Shown in pieces: positions 26,057 through 63,081 of a stretch of DNA of 64,000 bases. The DNA is from Nocardia mangyaensis (GTDB lineage: Bacteria; Actinomycetota; Actinomycetes; Mycobacteriales; Mycobacteriaceae). Location: contig NZ_CP018082.1 of the NCBI RefSeq assembly GCF_001886715.1, positions 5,270,001 through 5,334,000 of the forward strand. Direction: 5' to 3'. Below the pieces are notes generated by a model that was given only the letters and a program-made list of their open reading frames with translations, was not told where the DNA came from and did not search any database. The position numbers and the translations under genes were made by a program. The stretch's first letter is position 1, and each line of letters begins with the position of its first letter.

Positions 26057-27271
26057 ATGATCAATCTCGAACTCCCCAAGAAGCTGAAGGCGAGCGCCAA
26101 CCAGGCCCACCAGGTCGCCGCCCAGATCTTCCGTCCCATCTCCCGCAAGTACGACCTCGCCGAACACGCCTACCCGGTCGAGCTCGACACCATGGCCGCC
26201 ATGGTGGAGGGCCTGGCCGATTCCGGCACGCAGAAGATCGGCGGCGCCGCGGGTGGCCGCAATGACGAGGCGGGCACCGACCTGCTCGCCAATGCCAACG
26301 GCGGCAACATGTCCGCGCTGCTCAACGCACTGGAGACCTCCTGGGGCGATGTCGGCCTGATGCTGACCATCCCCTACCAGGGTCTGGGCAATGCGGCGAT
26401 CGCCGCGGTCGCCACCGACGAGCAGCTCGAGCGCTTCGGCAAGGTGTGGGCCGCGATGGCCATCACCGAGCCGTCCTTCGGTTCGGACTCCGCCGCCGTC
26501 ACCACCACCGCCGTGCTCGACGGCGACGAGTGGGTCCTCAACGGCGAGAAGATCTTCGTCACCTGTGGTGAGCGCGCCACCCACATCGTGGTGTGGGCCT
26601 CGGTCGACAAGAAGCTCGGTCGCGCGGCGATCAAGTCCTTCGTCGTTCCGCGCGACGCTCCGGGTCTGTCGGTGGCGCGGCTCGAGCACAAGCTCGGCAT
26701 CAAGGCCTCCGACACCGCGGTGCTGCTGCTGCAGGACTGCCGGATTCCCGCCGACAACATTCTCGGTTCGCCGGAAGTCAACGTGGAGAAGGGCTTTGCC
26801 GGGGTCATGCAGACCTTCGACAACACCCGTCCCCTCGTCGCGGCCATGGCCGTCGGTGTCGCTCGTGCGGCGCTCGAGGAACTGCGCACCATCCTCACCG
26901 ACGCCGGTGTCGAGATCTCCTACGACACCCCCGCGATCAACCAGCACGCCGCGGCCGCGGAATTCCTGCGCCTGGAAGCCGATTACGAGTCGGCCTACCT
27001 GCTGTCGCTGCGCGCCGCGTGGATGGCCGACAACAAGAAGCCCAACTCGCTCGAGGCTTCCATGTCCAAGGCCAAGGCGGGCCGCACCGGCACCGACGTC
27101 ACCCTCAAGGCCGTCGAACTCGCCGGCACCGTGGGCTATTCCCAGCGCCTGCTCCTGGAGAAGTGGGGCCGCGACTCCAAGATCCTCGACATCTTCGAGG
27201 GCACCCAGCAGATCCAGCAGCTGATCGTGGCTCGCCGTGTGCTCGGAAAGTCCAGCGCTGAACTGAAGTGA
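26057..27271 (+). CDS. fadE23: acyl-CoA dehydrogenase, FadE23-like; 3' end is an attachment site
   Basis: This 404-residue protein starts INLELPKKLKASANQ with ARKYDL-like KYDLAEHAYPVELDT, as in mycobacterial FadE23. ITEPSFGSDSAA is the FAD/substrate loop and WGRDSKILDIFEGTQQIQ the C-terminal signature. RBS AGGAGAACCC precedes ATG 26057. The last 94 bp (27178-27271) are repeated at 32836-32929, so an element has integrated into the gene end and rebuilt it with one silent change (CGT for CGC, Arg). The protein should be intact. Confidence 0.9.
   Translation: MINLELPKKLKASANQAHQVAAQIFRPISRKYDLAEHAYPVELDTMAAMVEGLADSGTQKIGGAAGGRNDEAGTDLLANANGGNMSALLNALETSWGDVGLMLTIPYQGLGNAAIAAVATDEQLERFGKVWAAMAITEPSFGSDSAAVTTTAVLDGDEWVLNGEKIFVTCGERATHIVVWASVDKKLGRAAIKSFVVPRDAPGLSVARLEHKLGIKASDTAVLLLQDCRIPADNILGSPEVNVEKGFAGVMQTFDNTRPLVAAMAVGVARAALEELRTILTDAGVEISYDTPAINQHAAAAEFLRLEADYESAYLLSLRAAWMADNKKPNSLEASMSKAKAGRTGTDVTLKAVELAGTVGYSQRLLLEKWGRDSKILDIFEGTQQIQQLIVARRVLGKSSAELK
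27178..27271 (+). repeat. 94-bp direct repeat, left copy (att)
   Basis: This copy is identical at 93 of 94 positions to 32836-32929; the one difference is T at 27238 versus C at 32896. It forms the left boundary of a 5,658-bp insertion. Confidence 0.95.
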
Positions 27272-27285
27272 GCTGGTAGACAACG

Positions 27286-27323
27286 AATCCGGTGCGAGTC
27301 GACCTTCTGACTCGCACCGGATT
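27286..27323 (+). terminator. rho-independent-type terminator after fadE23
   Basis: AATCCGGTGCGAGTC (27286-27300) pairs perfectly over 15 bp with 27309-27323, with an 8-nt loop, followed by TCTTGTTT. As it lies inside the element boundary, it was probably supplied by the element. Confidence 0.8.
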
Positions 27324-27363
27324 TCTTGTTTCCGAGAACCTTCCGATTCGGATTCGCGGTCAC

Positions 27364-27648
27364 TCAGGCCGCTTCCAGGCCGTCTTCGGAGGGAAGCTCC
27401 CAGAGGTGGGCCGAATCGTCGACGGCCTGGCGGGCGCGCTCGTGGCTCGACGACAGCAGGTGCGTATACACCCGCAGGGTGAAGCCGGGGTCTTCGTGAC
27501 CGAGGTAGTCGGCGAGCTCCTTCACCGAGACACCGCGCGCGAGCAGTTTCGAGGCATAGAGATGACGGAGGCCCGTGTGCATGCCGTCTGCCCGATTGAC
27601 GTACACAAGATCCGCTTTGCTGAACGCTGGCCTCCACACGATCTTGTC
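27364..27648 (-). pseudogene. tyrosine integrase, only C-terminal catalytic part left
   Basis: Ninety-four C-terminal residues match a phage-type tyrosine recombinase: HTGLRHLYASKLLARGVSVKELADYLGH and DPGFTLRVYTHL (catalytic Arg, His and Tyr). One extra residue separates H from LRH compared with the usual HxLRH. Upstream of 27648 the frame stays open to 27915, but the sequence (low-complexity Arg/Ala) does not look like the missing core-binding and N-terminal domains. The fragment sits directly next to the left att repeat, as expected of the integrase of this element. It is probably inactive. Confidence 0.75.
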
Positions 27649-28304
27649 AAGGGCGCCTGCGGCGGCGCGTGCGCGCCGCCGCCGCGCTACGACGCGCACC
27701 CCACGCTGGTAAGGCGCCGCCTGGGCGCGTCGGCACGTCGGCGACGAGCACGCGCTATCGGCAGACGTCGGAGCTCCTGACAGCTCGGACAGCATCGACC
27801 CGAGCGCGTTGACGAGGGCCAGGAGCATCCCCGTCAGAATTGCTGAACGGAATTCCCGAGCCCGAATCGGCAAACACCCTGCCCGGTCGACGGCCACCAG
27901 CGCACCGAGTCGCATACGTACTGCCGCACGACTTCGTCGCTTGCCTCGTAGGACCAGCCTGCCGAACCCGTGCAGGTGGTTATCGTGCCGTCACCGGTCC
28001 CAGCCGAAAAGGCCGGCATAGTTCCCGATCGCCTTGGCCGGTCACCGGGTGCGAGTGAATTGCTGAACGGAATCCGCGGTGAGGTCGGTGGTATCGCGAC
28101 CGGTGGCCGCGTGGCCCTGTTCTGGGTTGGCCTGCATTGTGATCCCGCGCCCCTCACACCTCAAGGGCGCCGATGGCGTCAGCTTCGCTGATTGCTGAGC
28201 AACCCTTGACCTGTGAGCCTCTGCGCGTGAACGGCAGGCCGTATCGGGCAGGCGGTGAGCCAGCCCCGAGGTGTGCACCCCAACCCAGAGCAGGGCCAGA
28301 AAGG
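27649..28304. other. eroded region behind the integrase remnant
   Basis: Several open frames overlap here without domain-like content. A 17-bp repeat GAATTGCTGAACGGAAT occurs at 27837-27853 and 28057-28073. The stretch may be what is left of the integrase N-terminus and excision genes. Confidence 0.4.
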
Positions 28305-28341
28305 CCAGGACCCCCAGCGCGATTGCGTCCGGGGGTCCTGG
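28305..28341. terminator. hairpin after small basic-peptide genes
   Basis: CCAGGACCCCC (28305-28315) pairs perfectly with GGGGGTCCTGG (28331-28341), an 11-bp stem with a 15-nt loop. It lies just downstream of the minus-strand small genes; the plus-strand side is followed by TTT. Confidence 0.6.
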
Positions 28342-28362
28342 TTTGTGAATGCGCTACTTGCG

Positions 28363-28476
28363 CTACTTGCGCTTCTTACCGGCGTCATTGCGCTTTTCAC
28401 GCCACCGGCCGTCGTTGTTGCGGTCGCGTTCTTTCTCGCCGCCGCCCTGCTTGGGGACCTGAGGTGGCTTGCTCAT
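28363..28476 (-). CDS. 37-aa basic hydrophilic peptide
   Basis: The minus-strand ORF begins MSKPPQVPKQGGGEKERD and ends GKKRK. It is highly charged, with no hydrophobic core, and follows the RTV-repeat peptide gene by 9 bp. Similar small basic proteins are common in mobile elements of actinomycetes. The RBS is weak (AGGGGC). No function can be assigned. Confidence 0.45.
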   Translation of the reverse strand: MSKPPQVPKQGGGEKERDRNNDGRWREKRNDAGKKRK

Positions 28477-28485
28477 TGCCTGCCC

Positions 28486-28593
28486 CTACCGCGCGGGCTT
28501 CACGGTAACCGTGCGGACCACTCGTGTGATCCGAACGGGAACGCGAACAGTGCGGGTAGTGCGGGTGGTACGAACCGTCTTGCGCAAAGGCAT
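28486..28593 (-). CDS. 35-aa Arg/Thr/Val-repeat peptide
   Basis: ATG 28593 has a strong RBS (AAGGGAG, 6-nt spacing). After MPLRK the peptide is almost only Arg, Thr and Val in a near-regular pattern (TVRTTRTTRTVRV, then RITRVVRTVTV). Alternating basic and beta-branched residues suggest a strand that binds nucleic acid or membrane. The plus-strand frame opposite codes a hydrophobic peptide but lacks an RBS. Confidence 0.5.
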   Translation of the reverse strand: MPLRKTVRTTRTTRTVRVPVRITRVVRTVTVKPAR

Positions 28594-28668
28594 GATCGGC
28601 TCCCTTCTTGCAGGCCAGACCATCCGACAGGCGGCGTCGCATATGACGAAACAGCCCTCAAGGTGTAT

Positions 28669-28708
28669 GGTCTCGCTTGCATGCCCTGTCAAAGTATGCA
28701 GCGAGACC
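28669..28708 (-). promoter_or_regulatory. dyad enclosing a TTGACA box
   Basis: GGTCTCGCTTGCAT (28669-28682) pairs with ATGCAGCGAGACC (28696-28708) with one bulged base. On the minus strand the loop contains a perfect TTGACA at 28692-28687, oriented towards the small-peptide genes. A weak -10 (CATACA) follows at 17 bp. It may be an operator around the -35 box. Confidence 0.45.
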
Positions 28709-28751
28709 AGCCTTACGTCGGATACTCATCCATGTGAGGCTGGTCGTTTTT
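28705..28751 (+). terminator. intrinsic terminator-like hairpin
   Basis: GACCAGCCT (28705-28713) pairs with AGGCTGGTC (28737-28745), followed by GTTTTT. Its left arm shares GACC with the neighbouring dyad, so the two folds exclude each other on the plus strand. Confidence 0.5.
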
Positions 28752-29763
28752 GTGCGACCATGCCTGGCTTCGTCACAGACACTACTCCTAGTGGCGGACA
28801 CTTCGGCTGACCACAACCCGTGGTAATCACTCGGTGTACTTCATATCGGAAAGATTTCCGACAAAGTCCCAGCTAGATCGTTTGCCGGTGTATCACAGAT
28901 ATGATCTTAGTCACATCTTCTGACCTGGGGGGATTCGGGTACGAGTTGCTGTCTTGACCTCTGGCGGACCATTTTTAAAACTGGCCCCCGATTCCCGCTC
29001 GAGTCAAAATAATCCACCAGAAGCCCATATGGGCATCGTTACCCCGCTGCGGGCTAAGGTCGAGTATTTGCGGACTGTTAGCTAGATCGAGACGTTGAAA
29101 CTGGTAGTTGTATATTCACGAAATACGTGGTATTAGCGGTCGGTTTCTGGTTGATCGACGCGGTGCCGTCAGCGCATCGCCGGAGGGCTGTTAGGTGGAC
29201 AAAGGTTGTCACGCCGTTGTCACAAGTGGTGCGGACGACCCCGGACGCGACGAGACCCCCGGCGGAAGTATTTCGCCACTTCGCATAGGGGTGCGGACGT
29301 CAGCAGATCGTCAGCGGACACGAGCTTTTCGACTCGTAATCTAGCGGGCACAGTGTCACGACGTCGCCCAGACACTCTCCTGCTGGGGCGGCCTGATGGA
29401 TCCAGGGCAAGTACCACTGCGGCGAGCATCAAGGCCAGGCAGGTTGCTGAACGAAAATTCTCTCCGCGGTCGCGATCGAGCCGTCGGCTAACGGCCGAGC
29501 TAGATCGCTGTGGTCCGGTCCAACACGCTGACACTCAGCAGCCGACCAGAGGAGGGAACACCCCCGCTCTTTCGGCGTTCAGCCGGACCAGTTGGTTGGC
29601 CAGCCGCTAATGTGCTGCAAGACAACCTAACCGAGATAGATTCATGGCGACATACGCCGACTCACTGACTTGCATCGACAGCAGGGCAGGACGACTTCAT
29701 CCGTTGCATAGCCACCATCACATAGTTCGTCAACCTTCGAAACTATACGACCACCCGGGGGCC
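28752..29763. other. 1-kb stretch without recognisable gene
   Basis: Open frames on both strands between 29206 and 29610 give Arg/Ser-rich peptides without a domain or an RBS. The base composition is lower in GC than the chromosome. It is read as eroded element DNA. Confidence 0.4.
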
Positions 29764-30955
29764 TAGTGCCTCGTCAAGCAACCTTCGGTAGGTAATCCGG
29801 TCGCCGGATCTTGGAGTTGACGGCGAAGTCCCGCTTGGGTCGGGCGTGCTGGTTGTACCAGCGGATGTAGGCACCGATCGCGGCGTCCTGTTCACCATGG
29901 CTGCGGTGATCGGTGCCGTTGAGCGCGAAGTAGCGCAGCGCCGCGAACTCGGACTCGATCCAGTTCAACCACGATGAATACGTCGGCAAGAACACCAACT
30001 CCACATCATGATCGGCGGCCCAGTCCCGGACCTCGGCCCGCTTGTGCGGGGAGAAGTTGTCGGCGATGACGTAGAGCCTCTCACCTGGCCACCGGGCTCG
30101 CAGCGACTTCAGCAACCCGAGAAACTCCTGCCACCGCTTCCGGTCCCGGATCCGGTAATGGATCTTCCCCGTCGCCAGATCCAGGGCACCGAGCAGGTGC
30201 CGAACACCCTGAGTGCGGTGATATGTCGCCCGCAACCGTCTCGGCTTACGCCGCGGAAACCAGCCTCGACCAGCACGAGGTTGCAGGTTCAACGGCCCGA
30301 ACTCATCGACACAGACCACCCGCCCGTCAGCAGGCCGGTGGTCGTAGAGGTCGAGGATGCGGTCCATCTTGGTGGCGAACTCGGGATCGGTGCCGGCTTT
30401 CCAGGTCTTGACCGCCTGCCACGACACACCCTCGGCCTTCAAGAGCTTGCGCAGAGTCTCACGACTGATCTCAGCGATGTTGTTGGTGGCCAACACTTCT
30501 CGGAGTTTCGACAAGCTCCAGGCCGAGAACGGCCAGCCGAGGTCTCGCGGGCAGCACCGGGCGATACAGGCAATGCGTTCACGCGTTGCCCGGTCCACCT
30601 TGCTCGGTCTGCCCGCGCTCCATTTTGGGTCCAACGCGTCGAACCCCCGCTCGTTGAAGTCGTGGATCACTTGCCGCACATAGGCTTCGCTGACCTGCAT
30701 CAACCTCGCGATCGCGGGGACCGGCTGGCGGTGCGCCGAGGCCATCACCACGATCGCACGCCGCATCCTGATCGGTTGTTTGCTCGTCTTCGTGATCTTC
30801 TGCAGTCGGCGGCCCTCGTCCGGGGTCACTTCTCGCACAAACACTTCCGGTTTCCTGGCCACCGGCACCACCTCCACCGGGGAGCATCACCGGTCACAGG
30901 CGCGCGATCAACTCGACACCCGGTTACCAGGGCAACCTTCCTGGACGAGGCACTA
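29764..30955 (-). mobile_element. IS630-family insertion sequence
   Basis: The ends carry imperfect terminal inverted repeats starting TAGTGCCTCGTC at both sides (left from 29764, right ending 30955). A TA sits at each boundary, as expected for TA-target duplication by this family. The total is 1,192 bp with one transposase gene on the minus strand. The right end lies 1 bp from the ATG of the membrane-protein gene. Confidence 0.85.
29774..30877 (-). CDS. IS630-family transposase
   Basis: The transposase has 367 residues. An N-terminal winged helix-turn-helix (residues 40-110: IARLMQVSEAYVRQVIHDFNERGFDAL) precedes the DDE domain with VVCVDEFGPL (first Asp), YVIADNFSPHK (second Asp) and SWLNWIESEFAAL (Glu). 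It is full length and in one frame, unlike many IS630 members split in two frames, so it may be active. Translation likely starts near 30877 or at a Met/Val a few codons in. Confidence 0.9.
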   Translation of the reverse strand: MEVVPVARKPEVFVREVTPDEGRRLQKITKTSKQPIRMRRAIVVMASAHRQPVPAIARLMQVSEAYVRQVIHDFNERGFDALDPKWSAGRPSKVDRATRERIACIARCCPRDLGWPFSAWSLSKLREVLATNNIAEISRETLRKLLKAEGVSWQAVKTWKAGTDPEFATKMDRILDLYDHRPADGRVVCVDEFGPLNLQPRAGRGWFPRRKPRRLRATYHRTQGVRHLLGALDLATGKIHYRIRDRKRWQEFLGLLKSLRARWPGERLYVIADNFSPHKRAEVRDWAADHDVELVFLPTYSSWLNWIESEFAALRYFALNGTDHRSHGEQDAAIGAYIRWYNQHARPKRDFAVNSKIRRPDYLPKVA

Positions 30956-30956
30956 G

Positions 30957-31736
30957 ATGCCAGACCAAGAGATCCCGCCAACTGAAGATGCTACCGAGGC
31001 AAACGATGAGCTAAGACCGCCAACGTCAGAGATCGCTCGAAGCGATGGACCGCGCACCTCGGTCGAGCAGTCTGAAGGCGGTCGCCGTAACCGTCCAGCG
31101 CTTTGGAGATCCCGAAGGTCTCGACAAATCCTCAGCAGAAGGCAACGGGCGGGCACCATGACACAAAGTGTGGATGGCACCAGCATCGGCGGCAGCCTGA
31201 CAATAATCAACGACAACTCGGGCACCCTGAACATAATCAATGGCCCGGACGGCGAAGCTGCCGAAATTAAGCGAATATTCGTTGATGCGCTTCGCGACCG
31301 CAGTATTTTCATTGAGAAGATGCACCGACAAGCCCTTCAACAGGCCAATTTGAACTATGTCATCTATACCATTTTCGCCGTATTTGGTGGTGTGGCTGTA
31401 CTTGCGGCTGCAGCGTTGGCGCTCGTCGATAGAACTAATACCGTGCAATCAATTTCCTTAGTCTCCGGCCTCGGGGGTATCCTTGTGGGAACCTGCGGTG
31501 CCGCATTGGCGTACCGGGCAGACCAGGCCCGCAAGCATTTAGCGGCACAGGGCGAAAAGGTTCACGAAGAGATTCGAATGGAACGGCGATTGGCCGAGGC
31601 CGCAGGCCTAGTTGCCGGTATAAAAAATCCGGAGCTAGGCGACCAGGCCCGCATTTCACTAGCGTTGCGTATCCTGAACGAGGGAAACGCCCCTGGAGAT
31701 ACCGCCGAAACGCAGCGCGATACCGATCCGACGTGA
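30957..31736 (+). CDS. membrane protein resembling TRADD-N-associated family
   Basis: This is a 259-residue protein. Residues 1-67 are charged and disordered. Residues 68-105 (SIGGSLTIINDNSGTLNIING) look like a short beta-rich segment, followed by a helix and two membrane spans (YTIFAVFGGVAVLAAAALALV and SISLVSGLGGILVGTCGAALAY). A long charged cytoplasmic helix (RADQARKHLAAQGEKVHEEIRMERRLAEAAGLV) and KNPELGDQARISLALRILN follow. This layout resembles proteins with the TRADD-N-associated membrane domain predicted in bacterial conflict systems; the match is from memory. ATG 31158 is an alternative start. The IS insertion has replaced its upstream region, so expression may depend on IS sequence. 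Confidence 0.55.
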   Translation: MPDQEIPPTEDATEANDELRPPTSEIARSDGPRTSVEQSEGGRRNRPALWRSRRSRQILSRRQRAGTMTQSVDGTSIGGSLTIINDNSGTLNIINGPDGEAAEIKRIFVDALRDRSIFIEKMHRQALQQANLNYVIYTIFAVFGGVAVLAAAALALVDRTNTVQSISLVSGLGGILVGTCGAALAYRADQARKHLAAQGEKVHEEIRMERRLAEAAGLVAGIKNPELGDQARISLALRILNEGNAPGDTAETQRDTDPT

Positions 31737-31965
31737 ATCCTCACGACGTATAGCACCCCAGCATCCTCGTGGCCCGATTATCTGATCTCACTCGGCCGTG
31801 TCAAGGGAAAGGACGCCTGAAGGACCTTCGACCGCAGGACCGCAGCGAGACCAGAACGGGACCACCCGCTACGAACGATGCCGAACAACCCCATGTCACC
31901 GTCGATCGACGCACAACCGAAAATCACTCGTGGCTTGGGGTTTCGGCCACCGGCTGAACTGGGGG

Positions 31966-32805
31966 TCAGGTGACATTGCTCGCGGTTGGACCTACATTGC
32001 CCAGTTCGATCATCGCCGGACTTCCATCGTCATCGTTGCAGCCCCAAGCGAACCCGTGGATCTCCTCAGCGCTAGCCTCCATCGCCCTCCGCTGAATCAG
32101 CCGAAACTCAGCTTCGCGGGCCTCATCGAACTTGTCCTCGTACGCAATGACCCATACGGCGCCGCCTGTTGCCAACGAGATGCGCCCGACGTCGCCGATG
32201 TGTTCTTTCACCGTGAGTGTTTCCCGATCCGGCGCACCGATCAAGACAACAAACCGGAGGGACCTTCCTGCTCCCGGAGTCGGAAACCACCGAACCAAGT
32301 TCAGGCGTCGTTCGCCAAACGATGCAACTAGCGAGCAATGCGGAACGGTGATCGTCGCCCCTAGTCGCCACCCGAGAGCGCACTCATCAGTGTGATCCCA
32401 CCTTGAGATGACGCGGTCCTCACCAGCCGGAAGGCGCGTCGCGGCTGCTTCTTTCGTCAACGCCATCCGCCACTTCGCTGGATGCAGGCTTAGCTTCAGA
32501 TCTTTCATTCCCATTCGTGGCGCGATGTAGACGTCACCTGACTTTTCGCCTACTACAGTCCACGACCGCGAGCGCAGGCCATCAGGGCTGCCCACTGCCC
32601 ACCGGATTGCTCCACTGCCCTCTATGACCTGAACTTCGGGTGGAATCAGCACGGCAGGCACACTATCGGCGGGACGCTTGACCCGGACGTCCTGGTCCGG
32701 ACTCCCGCCTTGCCAGGCCGCCCACAGGCCGTCAGAGGTCAAAAATCCACCAGAAACGCCGAGAAGCATCGAGATGGATACGGGCAGCCCAAGGCCGTTG
32801 TTCAA
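31966..32805 (-). CDS. hypothetical protein with SGDVYI...KLSLHP motif
   Basis: The protein has about 279 residues from TTG 32805 (GGAG 6 nt upstream); ATG 32769 is an alternative. The segment GDVYIAPRMGMKDLKLSLH, then WRMALTKEAA, recalls a group of uncharacterised actinomycete proteins found near integrases. The rest (LVRWFPTPGAGRSLRFVVLIGAPD, GGAVWVIAYEDKFDEAREAEFR) suggests a beta-rich fold. The reading frame stays open upstream through the right att repeat, but that part is antisense to fadE23 and is not believed. Function unknown. Confidence 0.6.
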   Translation of the reverse strand: MNNGLGLPVSISMLLGVSGGFLTSDGLWAAWQGGSPDQDVRVKRPADSVPAVLIPPEVQVIEGSGAIRWAVGSPDGLRSRSWTVVGEKSGDVYIAPRMGMKDLKLSLHPAKWRMALTKEAAATRLPAGEDRVISRWDHTDECALGWRLGATITVPHCSLVASFGERRLNLVRWFPTPGAGRSLRFVVLIGAPDRETLTVKEHIGDVGRISLATGGAVWVIAYEDKFDEAREAEFRLIQRRAMEASAEEIHGFAWGCNDDDGSPAMIELGNVGPTASNVT

Positions 32806-32835
32806 CCGTTTCTCCAGGTTGCCGGCACCTCGCCG

Positions 32836-32929
32836 CAAGATCCTCGACATCTTCGAGGGCACCCAGCAGATCCAGCAGCTGATCGTGGCTCGCCGCGTGC
32901 TCGGAAAGTCCAGCGCTGAACTGAAGTGA
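32836..32929 (+). repeat. 94-bp direct repeat, right copy (displaced fadE23 end)
   Basis: This carries the original last 30 codons of fadE23 and its stop, now separated from the gene by 5.6 kb. It marks the right end of the element. Confidence 0.95.
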
Positions 32930-32949
32930 CCGCTCTGCGGCAGAACGCG

Positions 32950-32981
32950 CCGCCCCGATCGCCGTACAGCGATCGGGGCGG
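32950..32981 (+). terminator. original fadE23 terminator
   Basis: CCGCCCCGATCGC (32950-32962) pairs perfectly with 32969-32981 over 13 bp, with a 6-nt loop, followed by TTGTGTGT. It lies 20 bp after the displaced stop codon, as expected for the pre-integration gene. Confidence 0.8.
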
Positions 32982-33105
32982 TTGTGTGTCCGGGGTCGTT
33001 GCCTCCGCTCTCGGGGAGGGACACGACCTTTCGCTTCGCGGCGACGCGTTCAGCCGAGCGTGAAAAATCGCCCGTGGCACCATCGCGGCTGACAAGCTGA
33101 GGCGC

Positions 33106-33462
33106 ATGGAAGATCTACGGGATGCCGAGCATCGGCTACAGGCCGCACAGCTCGCCGGCGATGTCGATGCGTTGGATCAGCTGTTGGACGATCGCCTGCT
33201 CTTCACCCTCGGCGGTGATGTCTACACCAAGGCCGACGACTTGGCGCTCCATCGCTCAGGGGCACAGGTGTTGACGAAGCTGGTCGAGGAGGACCTGACC
33301 GTGCTCGCCGACGGATCCACCGGGGTGACCTGGTTCCTCGGCACCGTCGAGGGCAGCGCGCAGGGCACGCCGTTCGCTGCCAGGATGCGCTACACCCGGA
33401 CCTGGCTGCACGATGAGGTCCATGGCTGGCGGATCATCGCCGCGCACGCGGGCGTCGCCTGA
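33106..33462 (+). CDS. NTF2-like (DUF4440-type) protein
   Basis: This 118-residue cone-fold protein begins with the helix MEDLRDAEHRLQAAQLAGDVDALDQLLDDRL. It continues with the strand-turn LLFTLGGDVYTKADDLALHRSG and ends with YTRTWLHDEVHGWRIIAAHAGVA, the standard end of this family. It may be an enzyme or a small ligand-binding protein. It is monocistronic. Confidence 0.7.
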   Translation: MEDLRDAEHRLQAAQLAGDVDALDQLLDDRLLFTLGGDVYTKADDLALHRSGAQVLTKLVEEDLTVLADGSTGVTWFLGTVEGSAQGTPFAARMRYTRTWLHDEVHGWRIIAAHAGVA

Positions 33463-33643: not shown

Positions 33644-34618
33644 TCAGAGGCGGGTGTGGTCGTCGGCGTCGAGCCGGCGGTCGAGTCGGTGCGGGTCGAC
33701 ATCGAGCAGCTTGCGGTCCCAGTGGGCGAGGTCGGCGGCCGCGGCGTAGGTGGACTGCAGGAACTCGAGCAACGTCGCGTCGGGGTCGTCGGCGGCACGG
33801 ACCACCTCGTAGGGCAGCACGAATTCGCCCAGATCAGCGTCCCAGTGGGCGCTCTCGGGGGTGACCGGGTGCTCGGAATACCCTTCGGGGGCGGGGTAGC
33901 TGTAGGCGTAGAAGGTTCCTTCGGCCCCGCCAGGCCAGAAGCCCGCGCTGGCGCATTCGCGCGAATACCCTTCCTCCATCACCCAATTCGCGCAGTTCGG
34001 TGCGCCGCCGGGGTGCGGTGGCGCGGTGCGGCCGGAGAAGCGGGTGCAGGCGAGGTCGAACGCGCCCCAGAACACGTGCACCGGACTGGATTTCCCGGCG
34101 AAGCCCGCGCGCCAGAGCTGGAAGACCCGATTGATCTGCACGAGCTGCTGCCAGAACTGCGCGGCGGCCTGCGCGTCATAGGAGTGATGAGTGGTGTCGC
34201 GGGCGAACGGGATCGCCGTTTCGACCTCGTTGGGCGTGGCCTCGATGTCGAGGACGATGTCGAGCCGGCCGAGCGTCTCGCCGACCGCGGCGTAGAAATC
34301 GGCGACCGTGCGCGGTCGCAACGCCACTGTGGCGCGACGGCCGTCGCTGGTGCGCAGGACGAGTTCGTGGTCGACGAAGTCGAATTCGATGTCGAGCAGG
34401 CGCCCGTCGACGGGGATGGCGCCGGTGCTCAGCCCGCGTGCGCTCACCGCGAATGTCACGTTCCACCAGTGGTTGACCAGCGGCGTCCCCGCCATCTTCA
34501 GCTTGCCGACGATCTGGGTCCACATGTGCAGGGTGTCGCGGGTATCGGTCCAGGAATCGACGGTCAGTGCGGGCCAGATCGCCTTGGCGGGGGTCAGTCG
34601 GGTCATCGCAACGCTCAC
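33644..34618 (-). CDS. DUF5996-family protein
   Basis: This 324-residue protein matches DUF5996: WPALTVDSWTDTRDTLHMWTQIVGKLK, NHWWNVTFAVSARGLSTG, IEFDFVDHEL, KSSPVHVFWGAFDLACTRFSGR, then SAGFWPGGAEGTFYAYSYP. No activity is known for the family. GTG 34618 overlaps the stop of the FMN reductase gene (GTGA), so it is translated as the third gene of that operon; ATG 34606 is an alternative. Confidence 0.8.
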   Translation of the reverse strand: MSVAMTRLTPAKAIWPALTVDSWTDTRDTLHMWTQIVGKLKMAGTPLVNHWWNVTFAVSARGLSTGAIPVDGRLLDIEFDFVDHELVLRTSDGRRATVALRPRTVADFYAAVGETLGRLDIVLDIEATPNEVETAIPFARDTTHHSYDAQAAAQFWQQLVQINRVFQLWRAGFAGKSSPVHVFWGAFDLACTRFSGRTAPPHPGGAPNCANWVMEEGYSRECASAGFWPGGAEGTFYAYSYPAPEGYSEHPVTPESAHWDADLGEFVLPYEVVRAADDPDATLLEFLQSTYAAAADLAHWDRKLLDVDPHRLDRRLDADDHTRL

Positions 34619-63075: not shown

Positions 63076-63081
63076 CGTTTG

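Follow-up and report, generated by a model that had tools for sequence, protein, structure and literature searches.

The locus

In a 64,000-nucleotide stretch of the Nocardia mangyaensis genome (RefSeq assembly GCF_001886715.1, contig NZ_CP018082.1, positions 5,270,001 to 5,334,000 of the forward strand; "the window" below is this whole stretch, and coordinates are its own), an acyl-CoA dehydrogenase (ACAD) gene ends in a 94-nt "tail" that recurs downstream. This account concerns the insert between the two tails and the family of tyrosine integrases of which it holds a remnant. The gene (26057..27271, plus strand; PF00441, 1.4e-34; PF02770, 7.8e-24) is an intact open reading frame (ORF) for 404 amino acids; its label, fadE23, is taken over from an earlier, sequence-only reading of the window. 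Its end is the left copy of the repeat (27178..27271); the right copy, in the same orientation (32836..32929), is a bare tail without a gene. The two are 99% identical at a spacing of 5,658 bp, and their sole mismatch, T/C, is synonymous (CGT/CGC, arginine both ways). Among the candidates scored in the 7.31-Mb single-contig genome, the 94-mer matches at these two places only (E ≤ 1e-8); no tandem repeat scoring 50 or more is found in 27000-33200, and a chance origin of the repeat is very unlikely.

Two features adjoin the left copy. A terminator-like hairpin (27273..27336, plus strand; -39.4 kcal/mol, z -7.45) travels with it, while the right copy is followed by a different one (-42.0 kcal/mol, z -4.06); relatives have similar hairpins after fadE23, and the one at the left copy would rebuild the transcript end of fadE23. 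Beyond it, on the minus strand, lies the C-terminal remnant, about 94 amino acids, of a tyrosine integrase (27364..27651, with its stop at 27364; PF00589, 1.7e-6), corresponding to residues 327-420 of a 420-residue relative, with 81% identity. The sequence-only reading had reported the repeat with its single synonymous change, the integrase fragment beside the left copy and the survival of fadE23 intact; all of this is borne out. It had also held that an element is integrated here, at the 3' end of fadE23, and proposed to look for uninterrupted fadE23 loci in sister strains and for other elements at the same site.

Occupied and empty sites in the genus

Both exist. The 94-mer is present in 149 of 150 same-genus genomes and has at least two matches in 19; in 14 of the 150, that of the window included, the tail is duplicated and the fadE23 site is occupied. 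(Our own handles designate genomes by G and loci by L. Outside this count stand G068 and G113, as well as G086, G126 and G143, whose second match is not near the copy and whose fetched region holds no second tail copy.) In 12 of the 14, the window's own again included, a full fadE23 and a bare tail share one contig with 1.7-18.4 kb between them; in G102 and G107 the copies are split over two contigs. Elements or their remnants, marked by the duplicated tail, thus occupy the site in 13 further genomes. Their states vary: five (G115, G122, G128, G101, G102) retain an open integrase of 417-420 amino acids, and three (G028, G083, G118) have little or no integrase left. G118 has three tail copies (L047, 2270-5290).

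Uninterrupted fadE23 loci followed by the same downstream genes are found in sister genomes, G112, G078 and G095 among them. Comparison of the 150 genomes with the DNA beyond the window's right copy yielded, among the matches listed, ten single-copy genomes (G078, G095, G096, G065, G035, G006, G020, G043, G057, G097) with a match to the DUF5996 gene 0.6-2.3 kb past fadE23, the distance being about 0.63 kb in G078 and G095. In the window this conserved right-hand neighbor of the empty site (33647..34618, minus strand) lies about 0.7 kb past the right copy and 6.4 kb past fadE23. The DUF4440 gene (33106..33462, plus strand), 176 bp from the right copy in the window, directly follows fadE23 in G112, where it is about 125 bp from the stop; the right flanks of the two align from base 128 of the compared stretch, with 77% identity over 106 bp. 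(In G112 itself DUF5996 comes 10.9 kb after fadE23; the roughly 10-kb gap between DUF4440 and DUF5996, about 1.8 to 12.2 kb in L226, is possibly another insertion beside the same hot spot.) What is expected of a gene-restoring integration is accordingly at hand: an empty site in relatives, an intact gene and a duplicate of its tail at the far end. An old tandem duplication of fadE23 without the insert, the finding that the sequence-only reading had named as fatal to integration, was not seen in the genus genomes compared.

What the intact relatives are

The element in G122 encodes an integrase, a RepSA-type initiator (PF20199, 1.2e-99), an FtsK/SpoIIIE-type translocase (PF01580, 1.3e-11), a DUF2637 protein and a GntR regulator. 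By similarity to the G122 proteins, 22 of the 34 ACAD-site spans bounded by a left and a right copy (see below) hold integrase, RepSA and FtsK together, which is the gene set, enclosed by attachment (att) repeats, of an actinomycete integrative and conjugative element (AICE); against a strict assignment, the G122-type proteins fall below the NCBIfam RepSA and TraB equivalog cut-offs. The intact relatives have a full-length integrase whose stop lies about 190 bp from the core site discussed below. Since they carry integrase, RepSA and FtsK-type protein, the window's insert should derive from an AICE of the pSAM2 type. Within the span of the insert itself RepSA and FtsK have no match, and only the integrase end remains of the AICE gene set: it is an AICE-derived remnant, not an AICE. 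With its integrase decayed, the window's element is probably no longer self-mobile, and as the genome holds no second integrase of the family at E ≤ 1e-30, it can probably no longer leave this site.

Other origins find little to recommend them. Identity does not exceed 29.6% among the 20 phage records listed of 695, and the best whole-length plasmid matches are at 39-44%. Nor is a tRNA gene the attachment site: the window's only one is at 63081, thirteen relatives have none in their short loci, and among 60 named loci scanned no ACAD locus had one (four non-ACAD loci did).

A putative core site

A right copy is present in the sequence examined for 34 of 42 ACAD loci. (Kept out of the pair count are L084, L085, L092, L095 and L099, and also G102 and G107, whose copies fall on separate contigs.) In all 34 pairs identity starts within the first five bases from the lysine codon of a shared motif, K-I-x-x-I-[YF]-E-G-T, and the 30 bases upstream match at only 1-11 positions. 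Downstream, 33 pairs have 186 nucleotide but 18 amino acid differences, a count that omits L047, in which a full tail is compared with a truncated middle copy (35 nucleotide, 15 amino acid differences). Twenty-three pairs were classed by us as intact from the state of their integrase (L096, with a frame of 351 amino acids, is included), and in every one of these columns 5-22 are identical.

Comparison of the pairs points to a core of the form AGAT-N7-ATCT, its arms in codons that the ACADs share and its center in variable codons. In the window the putative left core, AGAT-CCTCGAC-ATCT, is at 27180..27194 (arms 27180-27183 and 27191-27194, 7-bp overlap 27184-27190) and the right one, of the same sequence, at 32838..32852, both on the plus strand. 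N7 is CCTSGAC in FadE23-type genes (variants CTTGGAC, TCTSGAC, CCTCGAT, CCTGGAT and TATGGAC), CACSCAG in the genes of a short-chain ACAD (SCAD) type (once TACCCAG), and CTTCACC in a medium-chain-like (MCAD-like) gene; the SCAD and MCAD labels come from the nearest solved structures and are loose. It differs between copies in four of 11 decayed pairs (L039, L042, L054, G602). At the level of sequence a tyrosine recombinase core is recognizable in the intact pairs: inverted arms enclose the same overlap, about 7 bp long, in attL and in attR.

Might the common start of identity reflect nothing more than a conserved ACAD motif, with the true crossover elsewhere in the tail? Identity does span 18 columns, which brackets the crossover and does not fix it. 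However, the intact pairs mismatch at columns 0, 1, 2 and 4 and again from column 23, and the 7-bp center between AGAT and ATCT is identical in 23 of 23, so that this alternative seems rather unlikely, and a crossover at the core is the reading that we retain.

The core is rare. In the whole 7.31-Mb genome the pattern AAGATC-N6-ATCTWCGA occurs at four places (a backward control gives zero): in fadE23, in the duplicated tail and in two further ACAD genes. The genome has 68 PF00441 matches; 30 of these loci were read, of which 13 match the motif loosely and three have the core, and the two further ACAD genes are those of the 30 that best match the genes which the integrase clade described below occupies elsewhere in the genus, namely the SCAD type (L164-L166, L168-L171) and a third type (L167). 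Of 148 genomes, 68 hold the third-type core pattern, at 70 places in all, gene identity being presumed from the pattern.

An integrase clade at ACAD gene ends

At E ≤ 1e-30 the integrase has a match in 24 of 150 same-genus genomes, and in 18 of the 24 it lies beside an ACAD gene of one of the three core-bearing types: fadE23 in ten (G000, which is the window's genome, G071, G077, G101, G102, G107, G115, G122, G128, G147), the SCAD type in seven (G010, G018, G029, G068, G082, G110, G145) and the third type in one (G116). Outside the genus, a search across the taxonomic family (401 genomes of 31 genera, four candidates scored per genome) gave no match at E ≤ 1e-90; at the level of the order, with a limit of E ≤ 1e-110, 15 genomes out of 397 had a match. 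Thirteen aligned integrases served to scan named genomes, where at least 593 stretches matched and the 80 best loci were taken. (A "quick" tree holds 108 integrases and a "careful" tree 41 of those rows, chosen by us; left out are L084 and L092, which are the same loci as other rows, L100 and L205 with integrases shorter than 340 amino acids, and the identical L213 and L221.)

The outcome is a clade of 30 rows (SH-aLRT support 99 in the quick tree, 100/98 in the careful tree), every member of which sits at the end of an ACAD gene, at most 640 bp away in 28 cases and at most 2 kb away in the other two. ACAD and integrase are convergent in 28 of the 30. Hosts of the family include Nocardia, Amycolatopsis, Prauserella, Actinophytocola, Crossiella, Lentzea, Pseudonocardia and Jiangella. 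Five loci looked at first like exceptions, with an integrase and no adjacent ACAD gene (L100, L103, L205, L209, L210); the gene was found 1.1-2 kb further on. In L209 and L210 it is 1.3-2 kb from the integrase, and a second integrase fragment lies between in L209, which suggests stacked elements. Integrase fragments between the ACAD gene and the main integrase are also seen in L100 and L225; together with the three tails of G118 these are signs that elements can stack at a single ACAD end. Immediately outside the clade branch three integrases that use MCAD-like genes (87/89, not starred).

Does each lineage simply inherit one fixed gene, or do these integrases move between paralogues? Sub-clades are mostly uniform in target, as they would be if ACAD sites were shared by ancestry alone and there were no switching. 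But in the careful tree FadE23 and SCAD users require three changes, and the FadE23-type users fall in three separate places; forcing them together costs 63 log-likelihood units and is rejected by the approximately unbiased (AU) test at p 0.0009, and at p 0.015 in the quick tree. (Both tests were chosen after the tree had been seen, which weakens them somewhat.) As judged from the trees, FadE23 targeting is polyphyletic. Moreover, the integrase of L067 (G116), which belongs among those of the genus's SCAD users, sits at the third paralogue. (L067 was labeled SCAD in the quick tree and in its p 0.015 test, and third type afterwards.) At the third-type core places the overlap is the SCAD-type CACSCAG in 66 of the 70 listed, the window's genome providing one of the four that differ; the two types having the same overlap, a switch between them would be easy. 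Strict inheritance of one gene per lineage is therefore quite improbable, and switching between paralogues is preferred.

Proposed mechanism and its standing

An integrase of this family would recombine the core of its element with the identical core of fadE23, which lies in the codons for Lys-Ile-x-x-Ile-Phe, 30 codons before the stop. Because the element brings its own copy of the gene's tail and a terminator-like hairpin, integration would swap the host's tail for a synonymous one and leave the native tail at the far end. The last 30 codons of the 26057..27271 ORF would on this account have been supplied by the element, and 32836..32929 would be the displaced native tail. Afterwards, the replication and transfer genes would have been lost, some 94 integrase residues kept and an insertion sequence taken in.

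The same scheme may be extended to the clade. The half-sites, AGAT and ATCT, would lie in codons of the motif that are common to the targeted ACADs, and the strand-exchange overlap in two variable codons; binding to the arms would then be common to the paralogues, and identity of the overlap would pick the gene. A new gene would come within reach through a change of the overlap, or through a paralogue that already shares it. As homologous tails are interchangeable at the protein level, the enzyme would still work, possibly as a chimera, even after the first hop. Every integration would turn the last 23-30 codons of a β-oxidation enzyme into foreign DNA under protein-level constraint.

Several observations weigh against this account. 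Six of the 24 integrase-bearing genomes do not fit (G005, G059, G073, G076, G134, G138): the integrases of G005, G059, G076 and G134 have no ACAD tail within 700 bp, and that of G138 adjoins a tail-like piece only. These six are kept out of the claim of ACAD targeting. Eight of the 42 ACAD loci have no right copy in the sequence examined. About 115 bp immediately after the window's right copy have no homology at the G112 empty site, so that the right junction either was altered later or is different in the window's lineage. The copies differ by one base, which is C, G or T among relatives, and sequence consequently does not tell which copy is native. Finally, no recombination has been observed: the anatomy of the tail swap is plain to see, and it is from this that we infer the reaction.

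These points notwithstanding, we hold it very probable that the insert derives from an AICE, was placed at the fadE23 core by its integrase and then decayed, and that the integrase clade to which it belongs uses ACAD 3' ends. A tandem or segmental duplication of the end of fadE23, split later by unrelated insertions, is scarcely credible: the right copy is indeed a bare tail and an insertion sequence does lie in the interval, but the shared starting codon of all 34 pairs, in three ACAD types and several genera, the dissimilarity of the bases just before it, the mobility genes in 22 of the spans and the existence of empty sites all speak against it. To integration at fadE23, which the sequence-only reading had right, comparison adds what that reading did not contain: the probable AICE derivation, the decay of the integrase and the apparent clade-wide targeting of ACAD paralogues. 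That this clade treats the ACAD family as other integrases treat tRNA genes, with targets moved by changing or sharing the overlap, is a further step, and one that we consider likely.

The rest of the insert

The segment at 27646..28298 (653 bp) is 88% identical to a second place in the genome (G000:C1:1145700-1146352, in L005), which has a tRNA-Cys gene about 1 kb away; no integrase of the same family is found in L005, a locus of 3.65 kb. An insertion sequence with terminal inverted repeats occupies 29763..30956 (minus strand; transposase 29774-30877, PF13358, 2.6e-20) and has two extra copies in the genome, both 100% identical; from its DDE_3 transposase and its ends we take it to be IS630-like. 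Two cargo ORFs follow: one for 259 amino acids with a CyanoTRADDas_TM domain (30957..31736, plus strand; PF20712, 1.6e-8), which as listed starts at the edge of the insertion sequence, and a second without a family match (31966..32832, minus strand; Pfam, NCBIfam and PADLOC gave nothing at the cut-offs applied). A known defense system was considered as cargo and set aside, PADLOC having matched neither. In the decayed fadE23-site element of G147 the cargo (L042, 3844-5625) has weak PADLOC matches to LmuA (1.7e-5) and PDC-M58A (3.5e-4).

Related integrases at other genes

More distant relatives, at about 42-51% identity, sit at genes of other kinds, for each of which one or two examples were checked by family search: type I glutamine synthetase, NusG, TrhA/hemolysin III, a YkwD-family protein, dihydrolipoyl dehydrogenase and an aldehyde dehydrogenase. 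Gene ends are duplicated at L104, L109, L111, L112, L108 and L121; in a scan of the 80 named loci for duplicate ends, 20 matched at E ≤ 1e-6; nine of the 20 are ACAD loci, and some of the remaining matches lie outside a recognized gene end. Two kinds of type I glutamine synthetase gene have related integrases from Streptomyces and Pseudonocardiaceae at their ends (L114-L117, L120, L121, L127, L128, L131, L134, L138, L147, L149, L150, L154, L155 and L219; called by motif, with L114 and L120 checked), possibly a second protein family used through its paralogues. Three loci with related integrases (48-49%) carry a complete RNase P RNA, RF00010 (L110, 2157-2559; L214, 11885-12306; L215, 9610-10009), and what is duplicated next to the integrase in L110 and L215 resembles, by eye, the end of that RNA, which suggests rnpB as an attachment site. 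In G073 a distant integrase (29% identical; L174) is at an ACAD end that lacks the AGAT-N7-ATCT core, and no right copy was found; this is perhaps an independent use of the same gene family.

Significance and comparison with known systems

Taken alone, the window's element is an ordinary decayed element; it is the integrase family that is of interest. The preference of integrases for tRNA genes is usually explained by the conservation and symmetry of those genes. If a second, protein-coding family is indeed used in the same manner, that explanation becomes testable: conserved half-sites combined with a variable overlap would predict which genes serve as attachment sites and when elements can switch between them, and a natural series of attB and attP sites in actinomycetes is on offer. 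It would also suggest that mobile elements exchange the C-terminal tails of enzymes between species.

A literature search found no paper that pairs an AICE with an acyl-CoA dehydrogenase, most subscription papers lying outside its coverage. Integration at the ends of protein genes is known, and many islands reconstitute the genes that they enter (PMC12884075); tropism for a protein family with switching between paralogues looks new. The sequence-only reading had remarked that the 3' ends of protein-coding genes are less usual attachment sites than tRNA genes. Ghinet et al. (2011) place the vast majority of AICEs with tyrosine integrases at tRNA 3' ends, the pSLS subfamily excepted (PMC3218068); among the 18 plasmid records matched here, listed by accession and organism, no pSLS record was recognized. 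The sites tallied in a Streptomyces population are 36 tRNA, 14 protein-coding and one intergenic (PMC9513070).

The relatives of the window's element resemble AICEs of the pSAM2 type in having a tyrosine integrase beside one att site, a RepSA-family initiator, an FtsK/SpoIIIE translocase and a GntR regulator, and the window's own element resembles Streptomyces AICEs that have decayed to a partial integrase and cargo between direct repeats (PMC9513070). Their targets, acyl-CoA dehydrogenase genes, set them apart from the AICEs of PMC3218068, mostly found at tRNA 3' ends. ACAD genes have been entered before, by a serine-integrase prophage and at a PhiC31 pseudo-site (PMC9934374, PMC7890619), but those insertions, inside the genes, are likely to disrupt or inactivate them, whereas here the gene is restored. 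Tyrosine integrases typically have a strand-exchange segment of 7 bp in which identity is enforced (PMC10111431). There is a likeness to islands and prophages at icd and other protein-gene sites, where attP brings a replacement sequence and the gene stays functional (PMC10111431): a replacement tail is carried in both. For those, single genes such as icd are named, in contrast to one integrase clade at several paralogues with a shared core, and the element here additionally carries a terminator-like hairpin. Helper-embedded phage-inducible chromosomal islands provide the parallel for tropism, in that one integrase clade is repeatedly drawn to one class of target, prophage late genes, with new sites evolving (PMC10111431). 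Their targets are disrupted, with no replacement; the ACAD-end clade has homologous paralogues as its targets, and leaves the gene restored.

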